64,000 nt of DNA from NCBI GenBank assembly GCA_913776825.1, contig CAJYPV010000028.1, forward strand, positions 124,001 to 188,000. The letters are read 5' to 3'. The position numbers and the translations under genes were made by a program. Under the pieces are notes generated by a model that was not told the origin of the DNA, made no database searches, and saw only the letters and a list, made by a program, of their open reading frames with translations. The DNA is from Burkholderiaceae bacterium (GTDB lineage: Bacteria > Pseudomonadota > Gammaproteobacteria > Burkholderiales > Burkholderiaceae_C). Below, in pieces: positions 27,984 to 50,337 of the stretch. Each line of letters begins with the position of its first letter. Position 1 is the stretch's first letter.

Positions 27984-29084
27984 TCAGCTCACGGCGGCGC
28001 TCAGCAGCCGGACCGTGCCCGCCAGCGCATCCATTTCGGCGGGCTGGCCCACCGGCACGGTGAACTTGCGGCGGATGTGGCCGATCATCGCGCCGCGATA
28101 CACCGGCACCTTCAGCGGCAGGAAGTAGTCGTCGAAGACTTCGTCCAGGGTCAGCGTGCCGAAGTTGCCATCGCCCGGGCCGCAATTGGTGAACTTGCCC
28201 AGCACCACGCCGGCCAGACGGTCCAGCGCGCCGGACAGGCGCAGCGTGGAGAGCATCCGGTCCACGCGATAGATGTATTCATTGACCTCTTCCAGGAAGA
28301 GGATCGCGCCGCGGCAGTCCGGGAAATATGGCGTGCCCACCAGCGAGCTCAGCACCGCCAGATTGCCGCCCACCAACGGCCCACGCGCCAGGCCGCCGCG
28401 CAGGGTGCTGATGCGGTCCTGCGTGGTCACCAGGTTGCCGGTGCGCTCCTGCGGATTGCTCAGCAGGTCGGGCTCCGCCGCCATCACCACCGCCTTGAAG
28501 TGCTGCACCGAGAAATCGTTCCATTCCGAGCCCGCCACCGGGCAATGGAAAGTGATCAGGCCGGTCTGCCGGTGGATCGCGTTGACCAGGCTGGTCAGGT
28601 CGGAGAAGCCGCCGAAGAACTTGGGCTTGCGTCGGATCAGCGCGTAATTGAGTTTGTCGACGATGCGATTGCAGCCGGATCCGCCGGTGACCGCCAGGAT
28701 GCCCGCCACCGAGACGTCGGCGAAGGCGTCGTTGATGTCGGCGGCGCGCTGCGCGTCGGTCCCGCCGAACTGGCCATAACGGCCCTTCACATGCGCGCCG
28801 AGCCGGACCTTGAAACCCAGCGCCTGAACCGCCTCGACCGCGATCTCCAGCGGCTCGCGCTCATAGGTGGCATTCGCCGGGCTGACCAGCGCCAGGGTGT
28901 CGCCAGGGCTCAGCCGTCTGGCACGCAGCAGCGGCAGTCCGTTCGGCGCGGTGAGGGGCGGCGTGGCATCGGACGCGTCGGTCGCCGTCGCGGGACCCGC
29001 CAGTGCTGCGCGCGCCGGCCCGGCCAGTGCGGTGCCGGCGGTCAGCGCGCCAGCGGTCAGGAGCTGTCGACGGGTGGGGGGCAT
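27984..29084 (-). CDS. Tat-exported LD-carboxypeptidase-like protein (S66)
   Basis: A 366-residue S66 peptidase with a twin-arginine signal: TRRQLLTAGALTAG at residues 4-17, then an Ala-rich region to ARA. The catalytic set is S161 in GGFSDLT, E265 in ILFLEEVNE and H336 in GAMIGHIRRK. It would cleave the L-D bond of murein tetrapeptides, but in the periplasm, unlike classical cytoplasmic LdcA. An AGGAGA site fixes the start. It is the last recognisable member of a leftward gene run that includes a VanX-type dipeptidase (59 bases upstream), a LysR regulator and a peptide ABC importer. Confidence 0.9.
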   Translation of the reverse strand: MPPTRRQLLTAGALTAGTALAGPARAALAGPATATDASDATPPLTAPNGLPLLRARRLSPGDTLALVSPANATYEREPLEIAVEAVQALGFKVRLGAHVKGRYGQFGGTDAQRAADINDAFADVSVAGILAVTGGSGCNRIVDKLNYALIRRKPKFFGGFSDLTSLVNAIHRQTGLITFHCPVAGSEWNDFSVQHFKAVVMAAEPDLLSNPQERTGNLVTTQDRISTLRGGLARGPLVGGNLAVLSSLVGTPYFPDCRGAILFLEEVNEYIYRVDRMLSTLRLSGALDRLAGVVLGKFTNCGPGDGNFGTLTLDEVFDDYFLPLKVPVYRGAMIGHIRRKFTVPVGQPAEMDALAGTVRLLSAAVS

Positions 29085-29142
29085 GGCGTCTCCTGCGAGG
29101 AAAGGGGGGAGGTCGTCGATCCGGCCGGCGATCGGCCGGGGT

Positions 29143-29763
29143 TCAGAGCACCAGCGGCAGCGTTTGCCGAACCTGGTCCCGATCGCCGAAATCGAAATGC
29201 CACCACTCGGTGCTGATGGTCTGAAATCCCGCGTGGCGCATGGCGGCCCGCAACCAGCCGCGATGCTGCAACTGCGGCGCGGTGAGACCTCCCAGCGCCA
29301 GTTGCTCGGCCTCGAATTCGGGATGGGAGGCGGGCGTCATCTCATCGAAGCCGGTGCCCATGTCGAGCTCACGCCCGTCGGCATCCCGCAGCGTCACATC
29401 GACCGCCATGCCGAAGGAATGGATCGAATGCCGCGCCGGATGGGCCAGGTAACGGGTCAGCGGTGTGCCTTCCAGTTCCTTCCACAGCGCTTCCTGCACC
29501 CGTTGCGGCCGCAACGCATCCAGCACCACCAGGCTGAGGCCGGGTTGGTGGCGCGACAGCCAATCGGCGGCGACCAGCAGTGCGTCGGCGGCTTCCTGGC
29601 GCAGATAGGCGCAATCCAGCCCGCCGTAGACATTGCGGCCGACGAAGTTGTCGGGCGTCGCATAGCGCAGGTCGACGGCGATGCCGGGCAGGCTGAGCAG
29701 CGGTCGGAACGCCGGATGGGCGGCGATCTCTTCGCAAGGAATGGCGGGTTCGGATCGGCTCAT
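29143..29763 (-). CDS. ddpX: D-Ala-D-Ala dipeptidase (VanX/DdpX type)
   Basis: A 206-residue zinc dipeptidase (M15D) that splits D-Ala-D-Ala. The motif SxHxxGxAxD is exact at 113-122 (zinc ligands H115 and D122), ExxWH is at 186-189 (base E186, ligand H189), and R85 in LDALRPQRVQ is the conserved substrate arginine. No signal peptide, so it acts in the cytoplasm. With no VanS/VanR, VanH or VanA nearby and a peptide importer in the same run, it fits D-Ala-D-Ala nutrition or recycling (as E. coli DdpX) rather than glycopeptide resistance. Start at 29763 by homology. Confidence 0.92.
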   Translation of the reverse strand: MSRSEPAIPCEEIAAHPAFRPLLSLPGIAVDLRYATPDNFVGRNVYGGLDCAYLRQEAADALLVAADWLSRHQPGLSLVVLDALRPQRVQEALWKELEGTPLTRYLAHPARHSIHSFGMAVDVTLRDADGRELDMGTGFDEMTPASHPEFEAEQLALGGLTAPQLQHRGWLRAAMRHAGFQTISTEWWHFDFGDRDQVRQTLPLVL

Positions 29764-29792: not shown

Positions 29793-30698
29793 TCAGGCCA
29801 GGCTGTCGAGATTGCTGCGGGCGGCATCGCGCAGGTAGGTGACCAGGCGCCGCGCGGCCTGCGCGAGCGGCGCGCTGGCGGAGGTCAGCAGCACCAGCTG
29901 CACGTTCATCACGGGCTGCAGCGGCCGGACCCGCACGCGGCTGCGGTCGGCGGAGGCGGCGGTGAACGGGTCCACCACGGTCATGCCGACGCCCGCTTCC
30001 ACGAGCGCGCGGGCGAGCTGGTAGGTCTGCACCGTGATCCGGCTGTCGAGGTGGCGGCCTTCGGCCTCGCCGGCGTGATGGAGCATCTGGCCGAGCGGAT
30101 CGTCCTCGGCCATGGCGATCAGCTCGGACTGGATGTCTTCCAGCGGCAGCGGCCCTTGGCCCTGCGCTTCCGGGCTGTTCAACGGGCACAGCGCCATCAG
30201 GCTGCCGGTGGCCAGCACTTCGGTCTTGATGCCGGGATGGCGCGGATCGTGCAGGCTCAGCGCCAGATCGGCTTCTCCCAGCAGCAGCGAGGAGACCAGC
30301 TCGCGCGTGTGATGGGTGCTGAGCTGGATGCGGCTGCGCGGGAAGGCCTGCGTCCAGTGGGTCATGGCGGCCGGGATGACCGAGGCACCGAGCGTGGGCG
30401 TGGCCATCAGCCGCAGCAGTTCCGATTCGCCTGCGCGCAGATTCGCCGCCAGGCGACGGATCGAGACCAGGTCCCGGTTCAGCTTGTCGATCTCGACGAA
30501 CAGCCGCTGGGCTTCCGGCGTGGGATAGAGCTTGCCGCGGACCCGGTCGAACAGCGGCATGCCCAGTTGCAGCTCACAGTGCTGCAGCACCTTGGTCACG
30601 GCCGGCTGCGAGATGTGCAGCAGTTGGGCGGCGCCGCTGATGGTGCCGGCCTGCATGACGGCATGGAAGACTTCGATGTGCCGAAGGCGCATGGTCAC
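29793..30698 (-). CDS. LysR-family transcriptional regulator
   Basis: 301 residues. The N-terminal winged helix-turn-helix is standard (MRLRHIEVFHAVMQAGTISG, then SQPAVTKVLQHCE), followed by a two-lobed ligand-binding domain. It starts at a GTG (30698) that overlaps the stop of the binding-protein gene by 4 bases; an ATG two codons on is equally possible. The overlap argues that it is translated with the dipeptide-importer genes and regulates them, perhaps with a murein peptide or D-amino acid as co-inducer. That last part is inference. Confidence 0.93.
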   Translation of the reverse strand: MTMRLRHIEVFHAVMQAGTISGAAQLLHISQPAVTKVLQHCELQLGMPLFDRVRGKLYPTPEAQRLFVEIDKLNRDLVSIRRLAANLRAGESELLRLMATPTLGASVIPAAMTHWTQAFPRSRIQLSTHHTRELVSSLLLGEADLALSLHDPRHPGIKTEVLATGSLMALCPLNSPEAQGQGPLPLEDIQSELIAMAEDDPLGQMLHHAGEAEGRHLDSRITVQTYQLARALVEAGVGMTVVDPFTAASADRSRVRVRPLQPVMNVQLVLLTSASAPLAQAARRLVTYLRDAARSNLDSLA

Positions 30699-32341
30699 TC
30701 GCGGTAGACGTTCTCAAAGATCACCCCGCCGTTGGGCTGCATCCGGAATCCGCGCAGGTCCTGGCTGGTGGGGATGTAGACCGTCGAGTGTGCCATCGTG
30801 ATCCACGGCCGCTCGCGCTTGAAGATCACCTGCGCCTGCTCATAGAGCGCCTGGCGCGCGGCCGGATCGGGATTCGCCCGGGCGGCGTCGATCAATCGCT
30901 CGAACTCGCGATGGCAGAACTTCACGCCGGTCTTGTTGGTGGCGCAGCTGAGGTTGGGGGTGAGGAAGTCGTCGGCATCACCGTTCTCGCCGGCCCAGCC
31001 GCTCATGTAGACCGAGTGCTCGCCCGCGTTGGCGCGCTTGAGGTACTCGCCCCATTCATAGGTGCGGATCTGCGCGCGCACGCCGATGCGTGCCCAGTCC
31101 TGCTGGATCAACTGGGCCATCAGCTGGCCGTTGGGATTGGTCGGGCGGGTGACGGGCAGCGCCCAGAGATCGATGTCCAGCCCGTTGGCAAAGCCGGCCT
31201 GTTGCAGCAGCGCCTTGGCGCGTTCGGGGTTGTATTCATTGCGCAGGCTGCGGTTGTAGCCGGGGATGGCGGGCGGGAACGGATTGACCGCCTGCATCGC
31301 GTCGCCGCGCGGGAACAGCGCGCGGAAGATGGCATCGCGGTCGATGGCGATGTCCAGCGCCTCTCGCACCAGACGGTTGTCGGTGGGCGGCTTGCGCAGG
31401 TTGAAGGCGAGGTAGGAAATGTTGAGCGCCTGGATCTTCTCCAGCCGGATGCGGCCGGGATGGCGATCCAGCGCGGCGACGTCGATGTCGCGCAGCGGCG
31501 AGGTGATCTGGCATTCACCCGCCAGCAGCTTCTGCACCCGCACCGGCGCCTCGCGACTGATGGTGAAGATCAGCTTGCGGGTGCGTTGGGGGGCGCCCCA
31601 GTAGCCGGGGTGGGCATCCATCCGCACCACGTCGTCCTTCGCATAGCTGCGGAAGGCGAAGGGGCCGGTGCCGATCGGCAAGCGGTTGATCTGGCTGGCC
31701 TTGCCGTCGCGCAGCAGCTGGGCGCCGTATTCCGCCGACTGGATGCCGGCGAAGGCCATCGCGAACCAGGTGACGAAGGTGACGTTGGGTTGATGCAGCG
31801 TGAACCGGACCGTCATGTCGTCCAGCTTCTCCATGCGCGCGACGGCCTTGGCCAGGCCCAGGCTTTGCGGATAGATGAAGTTGGCGGGGAAGGCCTGGTT
31901 GAACGGGTGGTCGCGATTCAGAAAGCGGCCGAAGGTGAAGAGGACGTCGTCCGCATTGAGCGGTCGGGTCGGGGTGAACCACGGACGGGTGTGGAAGTTC
32001 ACGCCGGGCCGCAGCTCGAAGACGAAGCTGCGCGCATCGGGACTGATGGTCCAGCGGGTCGCCAGGCTGGGCTGCAGCGCGGTGCCGCCGCGCTCGAAGC
32101 GCACCAGGCCCTGGAACATCTGGTTGTTGACGTTGTTGGTGCTGGCCGAATCCCACAGGCCGGGGTCGAAGCCCTCCGGGCTGGCATCGGTGCAATAGAC
32201 CAGGGGTTTGGCCGCTGCGGGCGTCGCGCCAGAAGCGGCCCGCGCCGCCGATGCGGGCACCGCCGCGTCAACGTTGACGACGTCCATGGTGTGCACGGCG
32301 GCAAAGCAGGCGACCAACAGGGTGATCAGGGACAGGCGCAT
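30695..32341 (-). CDS. Peptide ABC transporter substrate-binding protein (DppA/OppA type)
   Basis: A 548-residue solute-binding protein (SBP_bac_5) that captures peptides in the periplasm for the Dpp-type permease encoded just upstream. Family blocks include DPGLWDSASTNNVNNQMFQG, DARSFVFELRPGVNFH and LNADDVLFTFGRFL. Start uncertain: the ATG at 32341 gives a hydrophobic signal sequence (MRLSLITLLVACFAAV); an ATG at 32365 adds eight residues and would make LLVAC a plausible lipobox. Its 3' end overlaps the LysR gene. An antitoxin gene on the other strand separates it from dppF. Confidence 0.92.
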   Translation of the reverse strand: MRLSLITLLVACFAAVHTMDVVNVDAAVPASAARAASGATPAAAKPLVYCTDASPEGFDPGLWDSASTNNVNNQMFQGLVRFERGGTALQPSLATRWTISPDARSFVFELRPGVNFHTRPWFTPTRPLNADDVLFTFGRFLNRDHPFNQAFPANFIYPQSLGLAKAVARMEKLDDMTVRFTLHQPNVTFVTWFAMAFAGIQSAEYGAQLLRDGKASQINRLPIGTGPFAFRSYAKDDVVRMDAHPGYWGAPQRTRKLIFTISREAPVRVQKLLAGECQITSPLRDIDVAALDRHPGRIRLEKIQALNISYLAFNLRKPPTDNRLVREALDIAIDRDAIFRALFPRGDAMQAVNPFPPAIPGYNRSLRNEYNPERAKALLQQAGFANGLDIDLWALPVTRPTNPNGQLMAQLIQQDWARIGVRAQIRTYEWGEYLKRANAGEHSVYMSGWAGENGDADDFLTPNLSCATNKTGVKFCHREFERLIDAARANPDPAARQALYEQAQVIFKRERPWITMAHSTVYIPTSQDLRGFRMQPNGGVIFENVYRE

Positions 32342-32660
32342 CGGAGGGGAAGGGGGCCGCTGCATTGTCGAAACGACAGCGCGCGCGTCACAACTGAAAT
32401 GGGCGGTTCGGACCATAACACCGGGTTATGTGCATGGGGACTCGGGCCTCGCCGCGCATTCCACCGCCCGGCCTCCACGTCATGGATCGAGGGCTGGGAG
32501 TCGATCCGTTTGGCTTTCGTCAGTGTTCCGCTGCAGCGCTGGGCCGAGTTTGCAGCTGAGCTCGAAGATCATTCGGACTCGCACTTCTCACGACGCCAAG
32601 TCCTATCCAGGCGCCACAAACGACGCTACATGGTGACCACGTTCTGCGCGGGAGAAGCCC
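32342..32660. other. Intergenic region upstream of the peptide-binding protein
   Basis: About 319 bases between the leftward binding-protein gene and the rightward antitoxin gene. Less GC-rich than its surroundings. It must hold promoters for both directions, but I see no clear -35/-10 pair, hairpin or repeat. Confidence 0.35.
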
Positions 32661-32980: not shown

Positions 32981-33961
32981 TCACACCACATCACACGCCA
33001 CCCGCCGCCCGTCCACCTCCCGCAGCTCCGGCCGCACTTGCGCGCAGCGCGGCACCGCCCGAGGACAGCGTTGATGGAACGCGCAGCCGCTGGGCGGATT
33101 CAACGGGCTGGGCAGTTCGCCATGGATGCGGATGCGGGTGCGCCGATCAGCCGGACGCAGCGCAGGCGTGGCGCTGATCAGCGCCTCGGTATAGGGATGC
33201 AGCGGCTGCGCGAAGACACGGCGCTTGTCGCCGTGCTCCACCACCCGGCCCAGGTACATCACCATCACCTCATCGGCCACATGCTCGACCACCGCCAGGT
33301 TGTGAGAGATGAACACATAGCCGGTGCCGAATTCTTCCTGCAGGTCCATGAACAGATTCAGGATCTGCGCCTGGATCGACAGGTCCAGCGCCGAGGTCGG
33401 CTCATCCGCCACGACCAGGCCCGGCTGCAGCACCATCGCTCGCGCAATCGCGATCCGCTGGCGCTGCCCGCCCGAGAACATGTGCGGATAACGCTGCAGA
33501 TGCTCACGGCGCAAGCCGACCTTCTCGGCCAGCCGCTCGATGTGGGCCTGCCGCTCCGCGCGGCTCAGCCGGGTGTTGATGACCAGCGGCTCCGCCAGCG
33601 TCGCGGCGATCGTCTTGCGCGGGTTCAGCGCCGCATAGGGGTTCTGGAACACCATCTGCACCTGGCGCCGCAAGCCCGCATGGGTGCGTGGATCGGTGGC
33701 GTCCTGACCGTGGATGCGCAGCGCGCCGGCGGTCGGCCGTTCGATCAGGGTCAGCGCCCGCGCGAGCGTCGATTTGCCGCAACCCGATTCGCCCACCACC
33801 GCCAGCGTGCGTCCCGCCTGCAGATCGAAGCTGACCCCGTCCAGCGCCCGCACCTGCGCCGGCGGCGACCACCAGCCGCGCTTGACGCGATAGTGCTGCG
33901 CCAGATCGCGCGCCTGCAGCAGCGGCGCGTCGCCGGATGCCAGACCCTCAGCGGCGCTCAT
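32981..33961 (-). CDS. dppF: Dipeptide ABC transporter ATPase (DppF type)
   Basis: 326 residues from the ATG at 33961, whose ATGA overlaps the dppD stop. Walker [10 protein letters not shown], the ABC signature [14 protein letters not shown] and Walker [13 protein letters not shown] are intact, and the C-terminal oligopeptide-ATPase extension carries the cysteine cluster ([17 protein letters not shown]). It energises the importer with DppD. Substrate specificity comes from the binding protein, here probably murein-derived peptides by context. It is the last importer gene before the antitoxin insertion. Confidence 0.94.
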
Positions 33962-34905
33962 GCGGGGTGCTCCTCGTTCAGCGGATGGAAGCAGCGCACG
34001 CCGGAGGCGATGCTCGGCCGCTCCGTCCGGCAATTCGGCTGCACGCGAGCGCAGCGCGGTGAGAACAGGCATCCCACGGGGCGATCCAGCGCCCCCGGCA
34101 CGATGCCTGGCAGCGCCTGCAGCCGGCGAGCGCCGCGGTTGTGCTCCGGAATCGCCGCCAGCAGCGCGGCGGTGTAGGGATGCTGCGGCGTCTCGAAGAC
34201 GGCGGGCAGGGATCCGGTCTCCACCACCTGGCCGGCATACATCACCGCGACCCGCTGAGCCATTTCGGAGACCACCGCCAGGTCGTGGCTGATCATCACC
34301 AGCGCCATGCCGCGCTCGCGTTGCAGTCGCAGCAACAGGTCGATGATCTGGGCCTGGATGGTCACATCGAGCGCGGTGGTCGGCTCGTCGGCAATCAGCA
34401 GCTTGGGCGAGCAGGCAATCGCCAGCGCGATCATCACCCGCTGGTTCATCCCGCCCGACAGTTCATGCGGATAGGCCTTCAAGCGTTGCGGCGCATCCGG
34501 GATCTCCACCTGTTCCAGCAGCTCCAGCGCGCGGCGCCGGGCGGCATCGCCGCGCAGGCCGAGGTGCGTGCGCAGCACCTCGCCCAACTGATGGCCGACG
34601 GTGTAGCTCGGATTGAGGCTGGCCAGCGCATCCTGGAACACCATCGCCACCTCGCGGCCGATCACGCGTCGGCGCTCGCGGGCGGACATGTTCATCAGGT
34701 CGCGGCCATCGAAGGCCAAGGTCTGCGCGGACACCACGCCCGGCGGATCGATCAGGCCCATCACCGCCATCATGCTGACCGACTTGCCGGATCCGGATTC
34801 CCCCACGATGCCCAGCACCTCGCCGGGTGCGACGTCCAGATCCACGCCCTCCACCGCCGCCATCGCGCCGAAGCGCACCCGCAGGTCTCGCAAGGTCAGC
34901 AGCAT
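33958..34905 (-). CDS. dppD: Dipeptide ABC transporter ATPase (DppD type)
   Basis: 315 residues starting at the ATG at 34905, which overlaps the dppC stop (TGATG). Walker [10 protein letters not shown], signature [16 protein letters not shown], Walker [13 protein letters not shown] and switch His ([10 protein letters not shown]) are present, and the C-terminal Cys cluster ([15 protein letters not shown]) is typical of Opp/Dpp ATPases. A longer frame to 35064 lacks any family likeness. Part of the dppBCDF set; translationally coupled on both sides. Confidence 0.94.
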
Positions 34906-35831
34906 CACGACACCCGCTTCAAACGGGGATCGAGCGCATCCCGCAGTCCGTCGCCCATCAGGTTGACGCTGAGCACCGACACCAGGATGCACAGCCCCGG
35001 CAGCGTCACCACCCACGGCGCGCGCACGATGTAATCCCGCGCCGACGACAGCATCGAACCCCATTCGGGCGTCGGCGCCTGCACGCCGAGCCCCAGAAAG
35101 CCCAGTCCCGCCGCTTCCAGAATGGCCGCGGAAAAGCTCAGCGAGGCATTCACGATCAACGGCGCGGTGCAGTTGGGCAGCACCGCGGAAAACATCAGTC
35201 GCCAGGTCGAGGCGCCGGCCACGCGGCTGGCGGTTACATAGTCCTTGCCCAGTTCGGCCAGCGCGGCGGCGCGGGTCAGGCGCACATATTCCGGCAGGCT
35301 GCCGATGGCGATGGCGATCACCGTGTTGAACAGGCCCGGTCCCAGCACCGTGATCACGCAGATGGCCAGCAGCAGCCCCGGCAGCGCCAGCATCACATCC
35401 ATCACCCGCATCACCACGGGCGACAGCCAGCGCGGATGAAAGGCCGTCAGCAGGCCCAGCAGCACGCCCGGAATCAGCGAGAGCCCCACCGACGCCAGCC
35501 CGATGCCCAGCGACACGCGGGCGCCATGCAGCAGTCGCGACAGCAGATCGCGGCCCAGCTCATCGGTGCCGAGCAGGAAGCGCGCATCGCCGCCGTCCAT
35601 CCAGATTGGCGGCATCAACATCTGCAGCCGGTATTGCTGGATCGGGTCATGCGGCGCGATCCAGGGCGCCAGCAGCGCGGCCAGCGCCATCAGCGTGAAC
35701 ACGCACAGGGCTACGAGCGCGCCGCGGTTGGTCGAGAAGCCAAGCCAGAACTCGCGCAGTGGCCCCGGCGGCGGAGGCGTTGTCGGCACGGCATCGGCCG
35801 GGGAAGGAAGCGGGTCAGGCAGCGCGCGCAT
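34905..35831 (-). CDS. dppC: Dipeptide ABC transporter permease (DppC type)
   Basis: 308 residues. A Pro-rich cytoplasmic lead (about residues 1-30) precedes the OppC N-terminal region and the BPD_transp_1 permease domain. The [19 protein letters not shown] block and the EAA loop ([22 protein letters not shown]) are clear. Start at the ATG at 35831; a longer frame adds a Cys/Pro-rich stretch. It overlaps dppD by one base and lies 76 bases after dppB. Confidence 0.93.
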
Positions 35832-35907
35832 GGTCGGAGAAGGAAAGCTGGCGTCGATCGTGGGGCTGGGCGGCGAGCATGGGCAAAGACGGGGCGCAAG
35901 GCGCGGG

Positions 35908-36963
35908 TCACGCCTCGCGGCGGATGCGCGGATTGACGATGCCATACAGCAGGTCGACCACCAGATTGACGGCGATGAAGGTGCAGGCGGAAATCAGGAT
36001 GCCGGCCTGCACCACCGGATAGTCCCGGCGCGCGATCGCATCGATCAGCCATTTGCCGATGCCGGGCCAGGAGAAGATGGTTTCGGTCAGCACCGCGCCG
36101 GCCAGCAGGCTGCCGACCTTCAGCCCGATCACGGTGATGACCGGGATCAGCGCATTGCGCAGCCCGTGCACCACCACCACCCGCATCGGCGACAGGCCGC
36201 GGGCGCGGGCGCTGCGCAGGTAGTCCTCTCGCAGCACCTCCAGCAGGCTGGAGCGGGTCATGCGGGCGATCACTGCCGTGGTGCTGGTGCCCAGCACCAG
36301 CGCGGGCAGCAGCAGATGGCGCAACGCGGACAGCCAGGCGCCAGGCTCGTCATGCAGCGCCGCGTCGATCAGCATGAAGCCGGTGAGACGCGGGATGTCG
36401 TATTCCACCGCGACGCGGCCGGACACGGGCGTCCAGCCCAGCCCCACCGAGAAGGTCATGATCAGGATCAGGCCCCACCAGAACACCGGCATCGAATAGC
36501 CGACGGTGGCCACGCCCATCACGCCCTGATCCAGCAGCGAGCCGCGCTTGAGCGCCGCGCCGGTGCCCAGCGCCAGCCCGAGCACGATCGCCATCAGCAG
36601 CGCGGTCAGCGCCAGCTCGGCCGTCGCCGGAAACAGCGCCGCGAACTCATGGGCGACGGGTTCGCGAGACACCAGGGACCGCCCCAGATTGCCGTGCAGC
36701 AGGCCGCCGAGATAGTCCAGGTATTGGCGCCACAGCGGCTGGTCCAGGCCCATCTCATGCATCAGGCGCGCATGGGTGGCGTCGTCCAGCGCGCGCTCGC
36801 CCATCATGATGGCGATCGGATCTCCCGGCACCAGCCGGATCAGACCGAAGGCGACCACGGTGACGCCCAGCAGCGTGGGCAGCAAGGTGGCCAGTCGTCG
36901 AAGCAGGAAGTTCAGCAAGGCCGTGGATCCGGGCGAGACGAGGAGGCGCGGCGACGGCGCCAT
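35908..36963 (-). CDS. dppB: Dipeptide ABC transporter permease (DppB type)
   Basis: 351 residues. The first membrane segment (LLNFLLRRLATLLPTLLGVT) and the family IRLVPGDPI motif are present, then the permease domain with the EAA loop (REDYLRSARARGLSPMRVVV). First of the four membrane and ATPase genes of the importer. It follows amiD by 73 bases on the same strand, consistent with one transcript joining periplasmic amidase and peptide uptake. Confidence 0.93.
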   Translation of the reverse strand: MAPSPRLLVSPGSTALLNFLLRRLATLLPTLLGVTVVAFGLIRLVPGDPIAIMMGERALDDATHARLMHEMGLDQPLWRQYLDYLGGLLHGNLGRSLVSREPVAHEFAALFPATAELALTALLMAIVLGLALGTGAALKRGSLLDQGVMGVATVGYSMPVFWWGLILIMTFSVGLGWTPVSGRVAVEYDIPRLTGFMLIDAALHDEPGAWLSALRHLLLPALVLGTSTTAVIARMTRSSLLEVLREDYLRSARARGLSPMRVVVVHGLRNALIPVITVIGLKVGSLLAGAVLTETIFSWPGIGKWLIDAIARRDYPVVQAGILISACTFIAVNLVVDLLYGIVNPRIRREA

Positions 36964-39005: not shown

Positions 39006-39027
39006 CGACGCGCGAGCGCGCGCCGCC

Positions 39028-39081
39028 GCTGAAGGCGCTGAAGGCGCTGAAGGCGCTGATGGCGCTGATGGCGCTGATGGC
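39028..39081. repeat. Six tandem 9-base units
   Basis: Three units GCTGAAGGC followed by three units GCTGATGGC, then a partial unit. On the minus strand they are in frame with the sugar-kinase gene and, if the longer start at 39152 or the Met at residue 19 is used, encode (Ser-Ala-Pro)n. The 9-base period keeps the frame, so copy-number change would alter only a linker. Confidence 0.85.
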
Positions 39082-39291: not shown

Positions 39292-39322
39292 AAAAAAAAC
39301 CGCGCCGGAAGACCGGCGCGGT
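39292..39322 (-). terminator. Intrinsic terminator downstream of the TonB receptor
   Basis: Read on the minus strand, ACCGCGCCGG pairs with CCGGCGCGGT across a four-base loop and is followed by a run of eight T. A textbook Rho-independent terminator 45 bases past the receptor stop. It therefore splits the receptor transcript from the downstream kinase gene. Confidence 0.93.
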
Positions 39323-42481: not shown

Positions 42482-44026
42482 TCAGAGCAGAAACACCGCG
42501 CGCGGGCCTTCCTGCTGCAGCGTGTTGAGCGCGGACGCCACCACCTGGTCGCCGGCCTGCACCTGCGTCAACACGCCGTCCGGACCGACGCTGCGGAAGC
42601 GCCACGACGCCTCGCCGCGGTGCGGGCTGCGCTGCCAGAGGGCATAAGCGCGCGGCGCTGCGCCATCCTGGGTCGTCAGCTTCACGCTGCCGTCGGGCGC
42701 GCGCAGCAGATGCACCGCGCCGCAGCCGGGGGCGCTCAGCCAGGGCGTGAGCGGCGGCAGCGCAGCTTGGGCATAGACGCCCTCCCGCAGCCGGTCGGCC
42801 AGACCGCGCCGGTTCTGCTGCAGCGCCACCATGCTGAAGTGCAGGTGACCGCCGGTGCTTGGCGCGACGCGGGTCAGCTCGATCTGCGCCGCGATTTCAT
42901 CCGCCGGCCAGCCGTCCGACTCATTGCCGGCCTTGCTGGTGAACAGCCCGGGCCAGATGTGGCGCTGCTGCGGATTGAGCCCCTGCCAGGCCCGCATCAG
43001 CGGCTCGAACGCCTGGCCGGCAGGCGCCCGCGGCCAATAGAGCTGAGGCGCCAGGTAGTCCAGCCAGCCCATCGCCAGCCAGCGTTCGACATTGGCGTAG
43101 AGCTTGTCGAACTGCGAGAACCCGACGATGCCCGCCGGCCGCAGGTCCGGTCGTGGCAGACCGAACGGACTGATGCCCAGCCGCGCCGTCGGTCGCACCT
43201 CGCGCACCAGCGCATGCAGCCGCTCGACCAGCCGATCGACGTTGTCGCGCCGCCAGTTCGCCCGGTCCAGCGTGCCGCCTTGCGCCAGATAGCGCTGCCA
43301 GCTGGGCTCGTCCGGGAAGTCCAGTTCCTGTGGCCGCGCCGCGGGATCGGGCACCGGATAGGGATAGAAGTAGTCGTCGATGTGCAGGCCGTCGAGCGCA
43401 TAGCGGCTCAGCAGATCGCGGCAGACGGCCAGCGTGTGGGCGGCGGCGTCGGGCTCGCCGGGATCGATCCACAGCTGATCGCCGTAGCGCTTGACCCAGT
43501 CCGGCCGGGTGCGGCTCAGATGGTTGGCCGCCGCGGGCGACTTGCCGCCGCTTTGCCGCGCCCGGTAGGGATTGATCCAGGCATGCAGCTCCAGGCCGCG
43601 CGCCTGCGCTTCCGACAGCCAGACCGCGAGCGGGTCGTAGCCCGGACCCTGACCCTGCACGCCGCTGAGGTACTCGCTCCAGGGCTCCAGCGACGACCGA
43701 TACAGCGCATCCGCGCTGGTGCGGACCTGCAGCACGATCGCATTCAGACGCAGCGCCTGGGCGCTGTCGAGCAGCGCGCGGATCTCGGCGATCTGCTGCG
43801 CATCGCTCAAGCCCTTGCGGCTGGGCCAGTCGATGTTGGCCACGGTCGCCACCCAGGCGGCGCGGAACTCCCGCGGCGGCGGCGGTGGCAAGTCCGGTGT
43901 GCCGGCCGGGCCCGGCAGCGCCGCGGCGGATGCGGGCGCCACTTCGCGCCAGGAAGAACAGCCCGGCAGGCCCAGGCCCAGCACCGGCGCGGCCAGGGCC
44001 GCGGTCATCAGCAGTCGTCGTTGCAT
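42482..44026 (-). CDS. digH: Lipoprotein glycosyl hydrolase-like GHL10 (DigH/YngK type)
   Basis: 514 residues. The signal ends in a lipobox (GLGLPGC, C23). The catalytic domain begins at about residue 52 with REFRAAWVATVANIDWPSR, the GHL10/DUF187 opening, and contains DALYRSSLEPWSEYLSG, LHAWINPYRA and GLHIDDYFYPYP, in which the paired aspartates are candidate active-site residues. E. coli DigH (YddW) is an outer-membrane lipoprotein that cleaves glycan strands stripped of peptides. With AmiD in the same locus (which would strip the peptides) this is a coherent pair. Symbol by family likeness. Confidence 0.85.
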   Translation of the reverse strand: MQRRLLMTAALAAPVLGLGLPGCSSWREVAPASAAALPGPAGTPDLPPPPPREFRAAWVATVANIDWPSRKGLSDAQQIAEIRALLDSAQALRLNAIVLQVRTSADALYRSSLEPWSEYLSGVQGQGPGYDPLAVWLSEAQARGLELHAWINPYRARQSGGKSPAAANHLSRTRPDWVKRYGDQLWIDPGEPDAAAHTLAVCRDLLSRYALDGLHIDDYFYPYPVPDPAARPQELDFPDEPSWQRYLAQGGTLDRANWRRDNVDRLVERLHALVREVRPTARLGISPFGLPRPDLRPAGIVGFSQFDKLYANVERWLAMGWLDYLAPQLYWPRAPAGQAFEPLMRAWQGLNPQQRHIWPGLFTSKAGNESDGWPADEIAAQIELTRVAPSTGGHLHFSMVALQQNRRGLADRLREGVYAQAALPPLTPWLSAPGCGAVHLLRAPDGSVKLTTQDGAAPRAYALWQRSPHRGEASWRFRSVGPDGVLTQVQAGDQVVASALNTLQQEGPRAVFLL

Positions 44027-44136: not shown

Positions 44137-45324
44137 TCACAGTTTGACGAACCAGCCACGCCGAAACATCAGCCAGGCGATGAGGTACATCACCCCCACG
44201 AAGCCGATCGCAAACAGCAGCGAGGCCAGGCGCGGGTCCAGCGGCCAGGCGGCGATCGGCGCATGGAGCCAGGCTTTGAGCGTCAGATCCGGTGCGACCC
44301 GCACCAGCCCCAACACCCGAGCCAGCACGCCGGACAGCACGAACAGGAACAGCGCATTCATGCCGAAGACCACCAGCGGCTGGGCGCGGCGCGCCATCGC
44401 CGCCCGCAAGCGCGGCAGTGGCGACGCATCCAGCAGCCAATAGAAGACCCCGAACACCAGGCTTCCCCAACCGGTGCTCATGAAGACGAAGGCCGGCGTC
44501 CACAGGCTCTTGTTGATCGGCAGGGACCAGGCGTCCAGGATCTGCGCCATCCACAGCGCGCCCAGCCCGGCCAGCATGAAGCCCATCGCCTTCTCCGACG
44601 GATCGCGGCCCCGCAGTGCCAGCCAGCGGCCGGCCAGCAGGCCGGCGATCTGTCCGGCCAACGCGGGCATCGTGCCGAGCAGGCCTTCCGGGTCCCAGGT
44701 CTTACTGTGCGACCACAGGTGCCCGCCCATCAGCCAGCGATCCAGCCAGGCGCCGACGTCCTCGCCTGGGGCGACTGACCCGCGATGCCACACGCCGCTG
44801 GCATCGGGCACCGGAACCAGCGTCTGCAGCATCGTGTAGGCCGTCATGAGCGCCACCGCCCAGACGACTTGCGCCCGCCAGCCACACCACAAGGCCAGCG
44901 GCGCCGCCAGCACGGTCAGCAGGCCCAGGCGTTGCAGCACTCCGGGCAGGCGCCAGGCATCGAACTGAAACAGCGGAAAGAGGTTGAGCAGCAGGCCGAT
45001 GCCGATGATCAGCAGCCCGCGTCGCCAGAGATGTCGCAGCAGCGCCGGCCGATCCGCTCGCTCACCGCGCCGGGCGAGGCTGAAGCTCATCGAGATGCCG
45101 CTGATGAAGACGAAGAACGGGAAGATCCAGTCGGTGAAGGTCCAGCCATGCCAGGCGGCATGGGCCAACGGCGCGAACAGCGCGGACCAGTCGCCCGGGT
45201 TGTTGACCAGCAGCATCGCGGCGATGGTGAAGCCGCGAAACGCATCGAGCGACAGCAGACGCCCGTCCAGCGCGCCGGCCCGTGGCGTCGCGCCGTGCTG
45301 CGCGGAAAGACTCGCGCCGCTCAT
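44137..45324 (-). CDS. NagX-like membrane protein (DUF5009, heparan-glucosaminide acetyltransferase fold)
   Basis: A 395-residue protein with about ten membrane segments. It starts with the characteristic RLLSLDAFRGFTIAAMLLVN and FTDWIFPFFVFISGISMSFS, as in NagX and eukaryotic HGSNAT. NagX genes travel with GlcNAc utilisation operons in several proteobacteria and are suspected of roles in aminosugar transport or acetylation; none is proven to my knowledge. It overlaps the stop of the AmpG-like gene by 4 bases (ATGA), so the two are translationally coupled. Confidence 0.88.
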   Translation of the reverse strand: MSGASLSAQHGATPRAGALDGRLLSLDAFRGFTIAAMLLVNNPGDWSALFAPLAHAAWHGWTFTDWIFPFFVFISGISMSFSLARRGERADRPALLRHLWRRGLLIIGIGLLLNLFPLFQFDAWRLPGVLQRLGLLTVLAAPLALWCGWRAQVVWAVALMTAYTMLQTLVPVPDASGVWHRGSVAPGEDVGAWLDRWLMGGHLWSHSKTWDPEGLLGTMPALAGQIAGLLAGRWLALRGRDPSEKAMGFMLAGLGALWMAQILDAWSLPINKSLWTPAFVFMSTGWGSLVFGVFYWLLDASPLPRLRAAMARRAQPLVVFGMNALFLFVLSGVLARVLGLVRVAPDLTLKAWLHAPIAAWPLDPRLASLLFAIGFVGVMYLIAWLMFRRGWFVKL

Positions 45325-46691
45325 GCCGCCGGCGTCTTGCGACCGAAGCCGTCTGGCACCTGGATCAGCGCGGTCATGATCAACGACGGCAGCGTGGCGA
45401 TCAGCACCCAGCCGAAGAAGTTCACATAGCCCAGCTGGTCCTGCAGCCAGCCGCTCCACATGCCCGGCAGCATCATGCCCAGCGCCATGAAGCCGGTGCA
45501 GATGGCGTAGTGAGCCGTCTTGTGCGGCCCCTCGGCCACCAGAATCATCACCATCAGATAGGCGGTGAAGCCCAGGCCGTAGCCGAACTGCTCGATCGCC
45601 AACGCGCCGCAAATCACCGCAAGGCTGCCCGGGTGCGACCAGGCCATCGCCAGGAACACCACATTCGGCACATGCATGGCCAGCGCGAGCGGCCACAAGG
45701 CCTTCTTGAGCCCGACGCGCGAAATGATCCAACCGCCCAACAGCCCGCCCAGAGTCAGCGCGCCCAGCCCCACCGTGCCATACGCCAGCCCCACTTCCTT
45801 GTTCGTCAGGCCCAGCCCGCCCGCGCTGACCGGGTCGAGCAGAAAGGGCGTGGCGAGCTTCAGCAACTGTGCTTCAGGGAACCGATAGAACAGCAGATAG
45901 CCGATGAACACGGCGATCGCGGGCTTGCGGAAGAAGTCCACGAAGATGGTGAAGAAGCTGCGCCAGTGGCGCTCGCTGGCCTCGGCCGGCCGATCGAGGT
46001 CGGGCCGCGGCAGCCGCCAGGCGTGATACATCGCCATCAGCAGGAACAGCCCCGCCAGGACGGCCATCACCGCCTGCCACGCGGTGACCCAGCTCGCCCC
46101 GCGGTCGTGCAGCTCGCCGGCCAGCCACACCAGGCCGCCCTGACCGCCGATGTTGGCCAGTCGGTAGAAGGTCGAGCGCACCCCCACGAAGGCCGCCTGC
46201 TGATGTTCCTTCAACGCCAGCAGATAGAACCCATCCGCCGCGATGTCGTGCGAAGCCGAGGCAAACGCCATCAGCCAGAGGACCGCCAGCGAAAGCTGGA
46301 AGAAGCGGTCCATCGGCAGCGTCAGCGCCACCATCGCCAGCGAGGCGCCCACCGCGAACTGCATCACAGCCACCCACAGCCGCTTGGTGCCCAGCAATTC
46401 GACGAGCGGCGCCCACAGCGGCTTGATCACCCAGGGCAAGTAGAGCCAGCTGGTGTAGAGCGCGATGTCGGTGTTGGACACGCCCAGGTTCTTGTAGAGG
46501 ATGACCGACAGCGTCATCACCACCACATACGGCAGGGCCTGGGCGAAATACAGCGAGGGCACCCAGCCCCACGGGCTGCCGGCCGGATCCACGGGGTCCA
46601 GGGAGCCGGAGGGCGGCGTCCCTCGTGGCGAGGCGTCGGAACGGGCTGGCGGCAAGTCGGGGGGCGACGAAGAAGAGGGCGTGGCTTGCAT
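45321..46691 (-). CDS. ampG: AmpG-like muropeptide permease (MFS)
   Basis: A 456-residue major-facilitator protein with about twelve to fourteen membrane segments after a Pro/Ser-rich cytoplasmic lead. Blocks such as WVPSLYFAQALPYVVVMTLS, SNTDIALYTSWLYLPWVIKP and ASASHDIAADGFYLLAL resemble AmpG, the permease for GlcNAc-anhydroMurNAc-peptides, and the AmpG relatives found beside murQ in other recycling clusters. Start at 46691, or 46712 as alternative. It lies 85 bases downstream of murQ and overlaps the NagX-like gene. The exact muropeptide specificity is not readable. Confidence 0.82.
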   Translation of the reverse strand: MQATPSSSSPPDLPPARSDASPRGTPPSGSLDPVDPAGSPWGWVPSLYFAQALPYVVVMTLSVILYKNLGVSNTDIALYTSWLYLPWVIKPLWAPLVELLGTKRLWVAVMQFAVGASLAMVALTLPMDRFFQLSLAVLWLMAFASASHDIAADGFYLLALKEHQQAAFVGVRSTFYRLANIGGQGGLVWLAGELHDRGASWVTAWQAVMAVLAGLFLLMAMYHAWRLPRPDLDRPAEASERHWRSFFTIFVDFFRKPAIAVFIGYLLFYRFPEAQLLKLATPFLLDPVSAGGLGLTNKEVGLAYGTVGLGALTLGGLLGGWIISRVGLKKALWPLALAMHVPNVVFLAMAWSHPGSLAVICGALAIEQFGYGLGFTAYLMVMILVAEGPHKTAHYAICTGFMALGMMLPGMWSGWLQDQLGYVNFFGWVLIATLPSLIMTALIQVPDGFGRKTPAA

Positions 46692-46776: not shown

Positions 46777-47670
46777 TCAGCGCGCGGCGAGAGCGTGGCG
46801 CACGCTGCCTTGATGTCGTTCCAGCAAGCGCGCTGCGTCTGGCGCGTCCAGTTGCCGGAGCAGCATCACGATGGCCGTCTTCACGCTGAAATCGCACTGC
46901 GACAGCGCCTGCTGCGCGCGGGCCTCGTCCACGCCGGTGGCGCGTCGGGTCAAGGCCACGGCCCGGCGGATCAGCTTCGCATTGGTGGCTTTCATGTCCA
47001 CCATCAGATTGCCGTGGACCTTGTTCAACCGGACCATCAACGCGCTGGAGAAACTGTTGAGCGCGATCTTCTGCGCCGTGCCCGCCTTGAGCCGGGTGCT
47101 GCCGGAAATGATCTCGGCGCCGGTGTCCAGCAACACCGGATGATCGCAAGCGGCCAGCACCGCACTGCCGGGGTTGTTGGCCAATCCGACCGTGAGGCAG
47201 CCCGCCGCACGCGCCGCCGCCAGCGCGCCCAGCACATACGGCGTCTGACCGGAGGCCGCCAGCGCGAGCAGCACATCCTGGGGACCCGGCTGCTGCGCCA
47301 TCAGGTCTCGGCCGCCCTGGTCCTGGTCGTCCTCCGCGCCTTCCACCGCGACGAACATCGCCGACGCGCCGCCCGCGATCAGGGCCACGGCGCGCTCCGC
47401 CGGCCAGGAGAAGGTGGGGCCCAGCTCCACGCTGTCGAGCACGCCCAGTCGCCCGGAGGTGCCGGCCCCCGCATACAACAGGCGGCCGCCCGCGCGGATG
47501 CGGGGCAGCGCCGTGTCCACGGCGGCGGCCAGCGCCGGGGCGGCGGCGCGGACGGCGTCCAGCGCGGCCTGCTGGTCCTCGACCAGCGCCTGCATCAGCC
47601 GGGCGCTGTCATACAGATCCAGATCCGGATGCTGCAGGCTGGGAGATTCGGTGTGAAGCAGATTGAGCAT
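46777..47670 (-). CDS. murQ: N-acetylmuramic acid 6-phosphate etherase
   Basis: Cleaves the lactyl ether of MurNAc-6-P to give GlcNAc-6-P and D-lactate, the committed step of MurNAc catabolism. A 297-residue protein of normal length with a SIS domain: GRLLYAGAGTSGRLGVLDSVE, active-site glutamates E82 (in DSVELGPTF) and E113 (in EGAEDDQDQG), and ALAASGQTPYVLGAL. The C-terminal helical region ends in VRHALAAR. It is followed by the AmpG-like and NagX-like genes and preceded by two lipoprotein genes on the same strand. Confidence 0.96.
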   Translation of the reverse strand: MLNLLHTESPSLQHPDLDLYDSARLMQALVEDQQAALDAVRAAAPALAAAVDTALPRIRAGGRLLYAGAGTSGRLGVLDSVELGPTFSWPAERAVALIAGGASAMFVAVEGAEDDQDQGGRDLMAQQPGPQDVLLALAASGQTPYVLGALAAARAAGCLTVGLANNPGSAVLAACDHPVLLDTGAEIISGSTRLKAGTAQKIALNSFSSALMVRLNKVHGNLMVDMKATNAKLIRRAVALTRRATGVDEARAQQALSQCDFSVKTAIVMLLRQLDAPDAARLLERHQGSVRHALAAR

Positions 47671-47830: not shown

Positions 47831-49303
47831 TCACAGCCGCGCTTCTGCGTCCAGCACGGCCTGAATCACCTCGGCCAGGCTGACCGGTGCGGTGGCGGGA
47901 TCCAGCTCCAGCAGGACGAAATAGCCCCGGTCCTGACCGCGTGCGGTGAAGGCCTGCAGCAGCGCCAGTTGATCGCTGTGGACCATCGTGCCCTCACGGT
48001 CCCAATATTCCATCGCCACCACGCAGCCCGCCGACGGCGTGCCCGGGAAATAGGCGCTGCCGAGGTAATAACGCGGATCGATGGTGCTGCCATGCAGCAG
48101 CATCTCGTCGCGACCGGCCTGTCCCGCGAGCCAGGCCTCCTGCATCGGCGCGTACTGGCGCCAGCTGGCCGGCAGCAGCGCGCGGTAGCGATCGAGCGTC
48201 CATGCCGGTTCATTGGCGCCCGGCGCGCGCTGCTCGAATTCGGCCACGCTCGCTTCGACCGGCACCTTGGTGTGCAGATAGGGCGTCGGTCCGATCCAGA
48301 TGTTGCTGGCGGCCCGCCCCGCGCCCTGCACGGTGAACAGGCCCTGCGGTGTGTTGCCCAGGGTGATGGTGCCCGGCAGTCCGCTGCGGGACAGCGCCAG
48401 CTGCGGAATGTTGAACAGCCCGCCATCGGCGCGGCGCACGAAGTGGCCGTCGGCCTGGCGGACCAGGGCCAGGCCCATCTGCTGGCGGCCCGGACGCTGG
48501 AAGCTGAACACCACCGGATAGCCGGGTCGCACGGCCAGCAGATCTGCCAGCGGCGGGCGCTGCGGTTGCGGCACGCCCTGCGCGGTGGCGAGCGCGAGCG
48601 CCAGGGCGCGGAGGCGCGGCTCATCGGGCTCACGGGCGCTCAGCTGGGACTGGATCAGCGCCAGGTCTGCGGGCTGCCGGGTCGCCATCAGCGTGTAGGC
48701 GGCGATGGCGAACTCGCGCGGCGTGGTCAGGCGCGGCAACAGCGGTCGCAACAGCGGCGCGGCGTCCTGCGGGTAGAGCGTGTAGGCGGCGCTCAGCAAG
48801 GGACGCTGCACATCGGCCGGCTGGCTGTCGAGCGTGGGCAGCGCGGCCAGCAGCGCGGGGCGGGCCGAATCGATCTCGATGTTGTAGTGCGCCGCGATGC
48901 TCAAGCCCTGCGCCAGTTCGCGCAGCACCGCCGTGTCGCGCGGCGAGGCCAGCGCCGCCGCCACGGCCGCCCGCAGCCGTTGACGCTCGCTCTCCAGCCG
49001 CGCCTGCGCCTGCGCTGCGCTGCCCACGGTCGAGCGGAACTGCGCCGGGCGCAGCGCCTGCAAGGCGGCGGGGCTGAACTCGCCGGTGCCTGGGGCCGGC
49101 GTCACTGGCGGGCGCGGGGTCGGGACTTGCGCACAGCCGATCAGCAGCAGCGCTGCCAGGCCGCTGGCCCAACCCAGCGGCCGACGCCTCGCAGGACGGG
49201 CGGCAGCCGATGGGGCCGCCGGTGAGCCGGTCGGGCTGATGGCGGCGGTCAGACCGTTGAGGCCGGGCAGGGCAGGGATCGCAGGGAACGAGGCAAGGGT
49301 CAT
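47831..49303 (-). CDS. Lipoprotein with L,D-transpeptidase-like active-site motif
   Basis: 490 residues. After a low-complexity lead there is a signal with lipobox (ALLLIGC, C57). Residues 80-260 are helical and leucine/alanine-rich. The C-terminal domain has LLHGST (H404) and, 23 residues later, PSAGCVV (C427), the order and spacing of the catalytic His and Ser-x-Gly-Cys of YkuD-type L,D-transpeptidases, although surrounding residues differ. If active, it could form or cut crosslinks or remove proteins from murein, as YafK/DpaA does. It overlaps the NAGPA-domain gene by 4 bases. Enzyme class inferred from this motif and from the neighbourhood. Confidence 0.55.
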   Translation of the reverse strand: MTLASFPAIPALPGLNGLTAAISPTGSPAAPSAAARPARRRPLGWASGLAALLLIGCAQVPTPRPPVTPAPGTGEFSPAALQALRPAQFRSTVGSAAQAQARLESERQRLRAAVAAALASPRDTAVLRELAQGLSIAAHYNIEIDSARPALLAALPTLDSQPADVQRPLLSAAYTLYPQDAAPLLRPLLPRLTTPREFAIAAYTLMATRQPADLALIQSQLSAREPDEPRLRALALALATAQGVPQPQRPPLADLLAVRPGYPVVFSFQRPGRQQMGLALVRQADGHFVRRADGGLFNIPQLALSRSGLPGTITLGNTPQGLFTVQGAGRAASNIWIGPTPYLHTKVPVEASVAEFEQRAPGANEPAWTLDRYRALLPASWRQYAPMQEAWLAGQAGRDEMLLHGSTIDPRYYLGSAYFPGTPSAGCVVAMEYWDREGTMVHSDQLALLQAFTARGQDRGYFVLLELDPATAPVSLAEVIQAVLDAEARL

Positions 49304-50337
49304 GGTGCGAAATCTTGGGTCCGGCGAATGATCAAGGCATTGGCCAGCGGCCGCAGCGAGGGTTCGTTGAAGGGGCGGGCCATCGTCGCACGACCTTCGA
49401 TCAGCAGGCTGCTGCTGCCGCCGCCATCCAGATTGAAGGCCTGGTGGACGCCGCGTGCGGCCATCAACACCGCGAGCTCGGACAGCCGCAGGCCGGCGAC
49501 TTCACCGCGGCGACCTTCCGCCAGCACCACGATCAGATGACGGCCGTCGGCATCCAGGCCCAGCGCGGTGCGGGGATGGACCGCCTGACAGAAACGGCAA
49601 TCCGCATCGTCGGACGGACGGCGCGCTTGCCCGGCGCGGACCAGCCACGGCGTTCCGGACACCGCCAGCCAGGCGGGCGAGGGCGGCGCTGGCGGCGGCT
49701 GGAGCAGCACGTCACAGCGGATCCAGGTGATGCAGGCCAGCGTCGGGCTGCTGTCCGCCGACAGCACCGGCGCCCAGACCTGTCCCGCCGACACGGTCCA
49801 GCCCCGCGGCGTGAAGGCGCGATCAAAGAACGAGGCATTGATCACCGCCAGCGCGTCGGTGGCGCCGTCGAAGGCGTCCAGCGGGCGACCGCGCTCGTCG
49901 GGGCCGGTCAGCGTCAGGCGCAGGCGGGGATCCTGCAGATCCAGCCGCAGCCAGTGCAAGACCTGACCCGGGCGGTGATCGTCCCGCTCATACAGCAGGC
50001 CGGGCTCGCCCGCGACCGGTTGCCAGTGCGGGGTCTCCGCATTCGAGACCGGCACAGAGGCTGGCGCATCGACCGTCCCGCGGTGGCCCGGTCCTTTCGG
50101 GCCATGGGCGCAGGCCACCAGCAGACACGCTACTGTCAACGCCATCGCGCCCGCACGCGCCTGCCGGAGCGTGTGAATGCCGATGCGGCGCGCCTGTTCG
50201 AGGCGGCGGCCCGCGCGGCCCTGTCGGAACTGCCCGGACAACGCGGCTACGGAGACGACCTGATGCGCGCGTCGTTCTGATGGGACGGGCCATCGACGTG
50301 GAAGGTCAGGCGGGGCGCTGCAATGCATCGGCTTCAT
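49300..50337 (-). CDS. NAGPA-domain phosphodiester glycosidase-like lipoprotein
   Basis: 345 residues from the ATG at 50337, which has GGAG at good spacing. The hydrophobic signal starts only at residue 65 (MALTVACLLVAC), so the n-region is unusually long and an internal start at 50145 is possible; LLVAC is a lipobox. The domain shows the phosphodiester-glycosidase (DUF2233/NAGPA) features: ALAVINASFFD, HPRTALGLDADG and the diagnostic FNLDGGGSSSLLI. The mammalian relative removes GlcNAc from phosphodiesters; bacterial substrates are mostly unknown. It is the first gene of the murein run. Confidence 0.82.
   Translation of the reverse strand: MKPMHCSAPPDLPRRWPVPSERRAHQVVSVAALSGQFRQGRAGRRLEQARRIGIHTLRQARAGAMALTVACLLVACAHGPKGPGHRGTVDAPASVPVSNAETPHWQPVAGEPGLLYERDDHRPGQVLHWLRLDLQDPRLRLTLTGPDERGRPLDAFDGATDALAVINASFFDRAFTPRGWTVSAGQVWAPVLSADSSPTLACITWIRCDVLLQPPPAPPSPAWLAVSGTPWLVRAGQARRPSDDADCRFCQAVHPRTALGLDADGRHLIVVLAEGRRGEVAGLRLSELAVLMAARGVHQAFNLDGGGSSSLLIEGRATMARPFNEPSLRPLANALIIRRTQDFAP

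Follow-up and report, generated by a model that had tools for sequence, protein, structure and literature searches.

The locus considered here, 17 genes at positions 27984-50337 of a 64,000-nucleotide stretch of Burkholderiaceae DNA (the window), has its closest described counterparts in two systems that handle fragments of murein (peptidoglycan, PG). The first is the E. coli-type recycling route through AmpG, NagZ, AmpD, LdcA and AnmK, studied also in Caulobacter, with which the locus shares its chemistry, AnmK, GH3 and NagA being encoded in the same genome; it departs from that route in that this genome has no AmpG over the cut-off used below and in that the genes are clustered in one locus. 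The hydrolase, amidase and dipeptidase families of E. coli DigH, AmiD and DdpX are represented as well; in E. coli these genes are not known to lie in one locus, whereas their relatives here share a single conserved one. For Caulobacter, PMC13046382 reports MurQ as missing. The second system is the nine-gene PG cluster of Tannerella forsythia (Tanf_08345-08385), which according to PMC7670621 includes AmpG, MurT, MurK and MurQ; its AmpG is 27% identical to that of E. coli and is required for growth on foreign PG fragments, and upon its deletion the disaccharides of N-acetylglucosamine (GlcNAc) with N-acetylmuramic acid (MurNAc) or its anhydro form (GlcNAc-MurNAc and GlcNAc-anhMurNAc) stay in the medium. 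The sugar branch of the two clusters is alike, with a divergent AmpG-like permease, MurQ and a kinase encoded together. T. forsythia, however, belongs to a different phylum and is a MurNAc auxotroph, whereas the genome studied here has AnmK and a MurU-like protein, and AmiD, GHL10, NagX-like, Dpp, DdpX, exported LdcA, LysR and receptor genes are added in our locus. A literature search for this cluster in Burkholderiales, judged by titles and abstract openings, found no description, and we call it undescribed provisionally.

We conclude that this is probably a muropeptide-catabolism locus in which the TonB-dependent receptor is a late, exchangeable cassette. The observed basis for this reading is the gene families, their synteny and co-occurrence, the lack of a canonical AmpG over cut-off and the occurrence of two unrelated receptors in one slot; from these we infer substrates, directions of flux and localisation. 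The interval was studied by gene listing, profile searches (Pfam and NCBIfam) and comparison to PDB structures. The sequence-only reading of this stretch had counted fifteen genes, fourteen of them on one strand; all 17 lie on the minus strand, and the plus-strand open reading frames (ORFs) inside the interval are taken to be shadow ORFs. That reading placed the genes correctly, and its murein, transport and regulator families were confirmed, profile searches backing 16 of the 17 names. Its individual assignments held at family level, with the AmpG-like and NagX-like proteins far below their cut-offs; its L,D-transpeptidase label found no profile match. Starts were inferred for the AmpG-like, NagX-like, receptor, DppD, DppF and M15 dipeptidase genes. 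In order of the minus strand, the features are as follows.

49300..50337, minus strand: NAGPA-domain (phosphodiester glycosidase) lipoprotein, accessory (PF09992, 3.3e-28)
47831..49303, minus strand: lipoprotein with an L,D-transpeptidase-like (LDT-like) HG...SxGC motif, accessory (motif only)
46777..47670, minus strand: MurQ, MurNAc-6-phosphate etherase, core (TIGR00274, 303.6 bits, cut-off 302; NF003915, 1.3e-109)
45321..46691, minus strand: AmpG-like permease of the major facilitator superfamily, core (TIGR00901, 168 bits, cut-off 350)
44137..45324, minus strand: NagX-like membrane glucosamine N-acetyltransferase (NF046061, 1.2e-44, 153 bits, cut-off 480)
42482..44026, minus strand: GHL10 lipoprotein of the DigH family, core (PF02638, 2.2e-52)
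39368..41836, minus strand: TonB-dependent receptor, exchangeable slot, not core (PF00593, 2.7e-37; Plug, 5.5e-10)
39299..39322, minus strand: strong intrinsic terminator directly 3′ of the receptor gene (10-bp stem, T-tail of seven T)
38076..39152, minus strand: BadF-type N-acetylhexosamine kinase, NAGK/MurK relative, core (PF01869, 3.6e-16; PDB matches)
37037..37879, minus strand: AmiD-like amidase lipoprotein with a PG-binding domain, core (PF01510, Amidase_2, 1.6e-32; PF01471, PG_binding_1)
35908..36963, minus strand: DppB permease (NF008161, 1.5e-135)
34905..35945, minus strand: DppC permease (NF008160, 3.5e-112)
33958..34905, minus strand: DppD ATPase (NF008246, 4.9e-128)
32981..33961, minus strand: DppF ATPase (NF008453, 7.2e-163)
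30695..32416, minus strand: DppA-like solute-binding protein, SBP_bac_5 (PF00496, 3.4e-84; NF043070, 3e-146)
29793..30698, minus strand: LysR regulator (PF03466, PF00126)
29143..29763, minus strand: M15 D-Ala-D-Ala dipeptidase, DdpX/VanX family (PF01427, 1.1e-27; NF007557, 1.9e-41)
27984..29084, minus strand: S66 LD-carboxypeptidase, LdcA family (PF17676, PF02016; NF008424, 3e-50)

Two overlapping samples were compared: 80 genomes (G numbers), comprising the window's own genome, 15 congeners and other members of the family and order, and 80 named loci (L numbers), the best 80 of 378 stretches matching the BadF-kinase profile, some of them short. Eleven of the congeners are loci L045-L055, filed under Roseateles, Mitsuaria, one Pelomonas and two metagenome-assembled genomes (MAGs) assigned to Rubrivivax, from which we infer that the window's genus is Roseateles in a broad sense. 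The core order of MurQ, AmpG-like permease, DigH, BadF kinase and AmiD on one strand is found in 64 of the 80 named loci, in genera that include Roseateles, Inhella, Massilia and Duganella, as well as in a Rhodocyclaceae MAG (L119) and in the acidobacterium Geothrix (L088; Acidobacteriota); the NagX-like gene, when present between the AmpG-like and DigH genes, is a variable member. The synteny that had been proposed as a check on a murein-fragment utilisation locus is thus borne out, and conservation of order and strand over many genera rules out a chance run of genes. Counting any match on either strand at any identity, the named loci hold BadF in 80, AmiD in 76, AmpG-like in 73, MurQ and DigH in 71 each, the M15 dipeptidase in 60, LysR in 46, NagX in 39, LdcA in 19 and DppB in 17; under stricter limits the dipeptidase is found in 53, LysR in 42 and LdcA in 15. 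The murein assignment holds, since genes for a D,D-dipeptidase, LysR, LdcA and Dpp recur beside this conserved core.

MurQ itself is present in 23 of the 80 genomes: the window's own, all 15 congeners, six other family members and one genome of another family of the order. The stretches around MurQ in the 22 relatives carry the core and Dpp in most congeners. Departures among the 22 stretches are a NagX match not found in the MurQ stretches of G001, G003, G009, G012 and G013, a Dpp set not found in the G007 locus, stretches that end at contig ends (G011, G014), inserted genes (G022, G036), a rearrangement (G042), partial loci (G028, G043, G045) and a genome with only MurQ, at 41% identity (G069). 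LysR ranks with the most conserved proteins, at 89-94% in the congeners and 83% in G007. Genes added in relatives fit the same murein pathway: in Geothrix, MurQ has a NagA-type amidohydrolase and an SIS gene immediately upstream of it, and in Massilia (L064) MurQ has a GntR/UTRA regulator upstream and, close by, a hydrolase of the beta-lactamase family and an oxidoreductase of the DAO type. The enolase superfamily includes Ala-Glu epimerases, and a gene of this superfamily adjoins the core in G042, with close copies (84-86%) in L099, L109 and L124 and weak matches in L064 and L088; an AstE/AspA-type amidohydrolase gene is found in 7 of the 80 named loci. An arginase-family gene (assigned by Pfam for the G043 copy) was also seen in or near the locus in G022, G036, G043, L057, L058, L060, L063, L066 and L073.

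Possession of MurQ goes with loss of the canonical AmpG, defined here by a TIGR00901 score above 350 bits. Canonical AmpG is present in 59 of the 80 genomes; no protein over this cut-off was found in the window's own genome, where the locus permease scores 168 bits. Among genomes with MurQ, 17 of 23 lack it (the exceptions being G007, G022, G036, G042, G043 and G069), compared with 4 of the 57 without MurQ, of which 53 have it (Fisher 4e-9, a value that serves as a guide only, the genomes being related). In 20 loci picked from the 80 named ones, 12 genomes lack canonical AmpG, genome completeness not being given, so that the loss is frequent, not obligatory, outside the genus as well. In a midpoint-rooted tree, 11 in-locus permeases group together and are separated from three canonical AmpG proteins by a 100/100 branch, and the window's permease is 26% identical to a canonical AmpG. 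Because canonical AmpG is mostly missing where MurQ is found, the divergent permease of the locus may have taken over housekeeping recycling. The partial locus of G043, in which no AmpG-like gene was found and canonical AmpG is kept, is an exception that fits this idea. A third AmpG-like permease of the window's own genome (L145, contig C18) adjoins a GH31 glycosidase, hinting that the AmpG-like subfamily carries several sugars.

The remaining steps of MurQ-type catabolism are encoded in the same genome, which has MurQ over its cut-off, a source of MurNAc-6-phosphate (MurNAc-6-P) in AnmK and an available NagA. AnmK lies on another contig (447.6 bits, cut-off 24), and the idea that its absence leaves the BadF kinase as sole source of MurNAc-6-P is ruled out by its presence. 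A MurU-like protein scores 246.9 of 250 bits, and GH3 genes are present. On contig C19, NagA (243.7 bits against a cut-off of 225.65) is clustered with another BadF kinase, a GntR regulator, an SIS gene, a GH3 glycosidase, a NagX/HGSNAT-like gene and an AmpG-like permease. In the mechanism that we propose, the lipoproteins AmiD and DigH, acting in the periplasm together with exported LdcA, would break murein fragments down to peptides and disaccharides; uptake would be through the AmpG-like permease for the (anhydro)disaccharides and through Dpp for the peptides. A NagZ-type GH3 enzyme and AnmK, both encoded elsewhere, would together with the BadF kinase yield MurNAc-6-P, which MurQ would convert to GlcNAc-6-P for entry into the separate nag cluster (NagA, SIS gene), and DdpX would cleave D-Ala-D-Ala to release D-Ala. 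The NagX-like protein would acetylate glucosamine. Since no canonical AmpG was found, housekeeping recycling probably also runs through the AmpG-like permease of the locus.

Because a second BadF kinase is already present in the nag cluster, that of the locus plausibly serves MurNAc. Its PDB matches include NAGK (2ch5) and a MurNAc/GlcNAc kinase (8zo3). In MurK, PMC10465942 places room for the lactyl group at S133-L135. Aligned to NAGK and 8zo3, the window's kinase has no Glu/His at the GGRG stretch, a stretch also found in the broad hexokinase 2e2n, and its R193 and R197 are invariant in 15 of 15 sequences (the window and 14 relatives, left from 17 relatives after omission of G001 and G012, with incomplete ORFs, and of G013, in two frames); the NAGK/MurK alignment does not settle specificity. 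In L025 (G013), the BadF region at about 11334-12217 of the oriented stretch matches in two frames, which suggests a frameshift or sequence error.

Several observations weigh against this explanation. Canonical AmpG is retained in eight of the 20 picked genomes that bear the locus, and two of the four MurQ-less genomes without it (G016 and G034) have lower-scoring fragments. The window's own genome encodes two paralogues about 42% identical to the locus permease that could carry muropeptides in its place, and with AnmK and a MurU-like protein present MurNAc could be returned to murein instead of burned. Dpp substrates are not readable from sequence, and DppB is found in only 17 of the 80 loci; likewise, the enolase-superfamily and AstE/AspA matches fix no function.

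The receptor stands apart from the core. Readable slots between DigH and BadF hold a receptor in all 15 loci of the genus (own, G001-G013 and G015; G014 is cut by a contig end). Ten are of the window's 822-aa type and five of an unrelated Oar-like type of about 1150 aa (OMP_b-brl_4, CarboxypepD_reg); in L045-L055, where the gap measures 3.2-4.4 kb, the split is six to five. Congeners with the Oar-like type gave no genomic match to the 822-aa type at 1e-60 (12 candidates scored per genome). At the same junction of the 53 core-ordered named loci outside L045-L055, no receptor was found; divergent receptors may escape the tblastn search used, as the one after AmiD in L059 did. The gap is 400 bp or less in 48 of these loci and 753-1399 bp in L056, L057 and L066; it is longer in L059 and L062, with no receptor-sized gene in the filtered ORF list. 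L056, L058 and L066, named Roseateles and lying outside the window's genus, have no receptor between DigH and BadF. In G022, also outside the genus, an Oar-like receptor occupies the slot and a further TonB receptor lies between DppF and DppA, and Plug-domain receptors of other families follow AmiD in L059 and DppF in L062. Hairpin terminators follow 5 of 10 receptors of the 822-aa type and 2 of 5 of the Oar-like type, compared with 2 of 1500 random slices and 0 of 15 other window genes tested, and are absent after 8 of the 15 slot receptors. The receptor looks like a late, exchangeable cassette and not part of the core, and the recurrence of receptors of different families in the slot and elsewhere suggests that import across the outer membrane has been selected for repeatedly.

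The most credible alternative, a tentative one that we hold below even chances, is that the receptor takes up a nucleotide, nucleoside or phosphate-ester and has landed in, or cooperates with, a locus for feeding on lysates; dead cells release both murein and nucleotides. We read 15 homologues outside the locus, four from one search and 11 from a second, scanning some neighbours of each: a 5′-nucleotidase was near six, a PhoD-like phosphatase near four, and a nucleoside hydrolase with a Xan_ur permease, an S1/P1 nuclease and a PnrA-like (Bmp) ABC transporter with GntR (L142) near one each, with none of these nucleotide or phosphate-ester genes among the neighbours scanned for L140 and L141. 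In a midpoint-rooted tree of 25 receptors, the ten in-locus ones cluster together (99/99) and are nested in a group of 15 (100/100), whose five outside members all adjoin a 5′-nucleotidase. A PF02872 gene lies within 5 kb of 5 of 12 outside family members compared with 0 of 137 other receptors (Fisher 1.4e-6; counted by eye), a comparison within 14 genomes chosen for holding the family and covering 150 of their 346 TonB receptors. That choice and coverage count against this alternative, as do the lack of a nucleotidase in the window locus and the fact that the relatives' neighbours do not fix the substrate of the window's branch, for which the candidates are fragments of murein, nucleotides or, possibly, murein precursors linked to nucleotides. 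The wider family (L128, L129, L130, L131, L134-L139 and L142-L144), found near nucleotide or phosphate-ester genes and in several cases with ExbB, is a candidate nucleotide/organophosphate receptor family.

Somewhat less likely is a system resembling a polysaccharide utilisation locus (PUL), whose TonB receptor would bring murein fragments of foreign origin into the same pathway. The sequence-only reading had gone this way, taking a dedicated receptor as the mark of a scavenger of foreign murein. The presence of a slot receptor, of two unrelated kinds, in every readable locus of the genus and in G022 supports the PUL-like side of that view, and recruitment of other-family receptors elsewhere in L059, L062 and G022 suggests a need for import. 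However, no receptor was found at the junction in the 53 core-ordered named loci outside the genus, and no SusD family is among the Pfam matches of the 17 genes, leaving a SusC/SusD pair unfound. The window's receptor also has its own terminator, an unrelated receptor fills the slot in 5 of the 14 congeners where it can be read, and 13 of the 15 outside relatives of the window's receptor have nucleotide or phosphate-ester genes next to or near them. Of the earlier interpretation as a whole, the catabolic locus and its synteny are supported; a scavenger of foreign murein, on the strength of a dedicated receptor, is not supported in the form given.

Self-recycling only, in which the locus would play no part in nutrition and would be the clade's housekeeping murein-recycling set with its permease exchanged, is in our view unlikely. 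Canonical AmpG is missing from most MurQ genomes and from 12 of the 20 picked, and the AmiD and LdcA families act in recycling. However, AnmK is found in 50 of 57 relatives without MurQ and a MurU match over cut-off in 43 of the 80 genomes, so that recycling there seems independent of MurQ, and MurQ, Dpp and DdpX point to catabolism. The missing AmpG also makes the earlier division between scavenging and self-recycling too sharp: because the permease may serve the cell's own recycling, the locus is not simply a foreign-murein scavenger. Quite improbable, finally, is a corpse-scavenging island in which own and others' murein would be burned in place of AmpG recycling while a receptor of 5′-nucleotidase lineage imports uridine diphosphate-MurNAc-peptides or nucleotides from lysed neighbours.

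The accessory genes and the organisation of the locus add detail to the muropeptide-catabolism reading. The NAGPA gene, present in 7 of 22 relatives' stretches, all from congeners (some stretches being cut by contig ends), overlaps the LDT-like lipoprotein gene by 4 bp. The LDT-like lipoprotein has no Pfam, NCBIfam or PDB match and hence no YkuD family match; its HG...S-x-G-C motif, which does not vary among the aligned homologues (14 of 14), is the sole basis of a name that presumes a link of this motif to L,D-transpeptidases, and an AlphaFold model from 14 sequences was unusable (mean predicted local distance difference test score 46.9, catalytic part <50). The NagX-like protein, joined to the AmpG-like gene by an ATGA overlap, had no Pfam match and did not reach the NF046061 equivalog cut-off, hence "NagX-like" only. 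The LdcA-family protein is probably periplasmic, a Tat-like signal having been read by eye. Short overlaps (NAGPA/LDT, AmpG/NagX, DppD/DppF and DppA/LysR) suggest translational coupling, and the distances between DigH and the receptor (about 645 bp) and between DppF and DppA (about 565 bp), measured to inferred starts, suggest several transcripts. A promoter scan gave 1 match versus 1.5 expected, and a DasR/NagR-like palindrome gave 5 matches in the window against 2-7 in shuffles and nothing meaningful there, in the nag cluster or in three relatives. Just downstream of the locus are two minus-strand genes without an NCBIfam match (26322-27143 and 27201-27902), and close to the locus on the plus strand is an S13 D-Ala-D-Ala carboxypeptidase (24539-26230); S13 matches occur near the locus in 49 of the 80 named loci.

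These results suggest that, in many environmental Burkholderiales, murein is processed through a cluster of catabolic genes that includes a permease of its own. That possession of the locus goes with the lack of canonical AmpG makes it testable whether a single pathway can serve both recycling and murein feeding. In the receptor slot, the exchange of one receptor for another amounts to a natural experiment on specificity at the outer membrane, and the kin of the window's receptor point to a family of receptors that is linked to nucleotide use and has so far been given no substrate.

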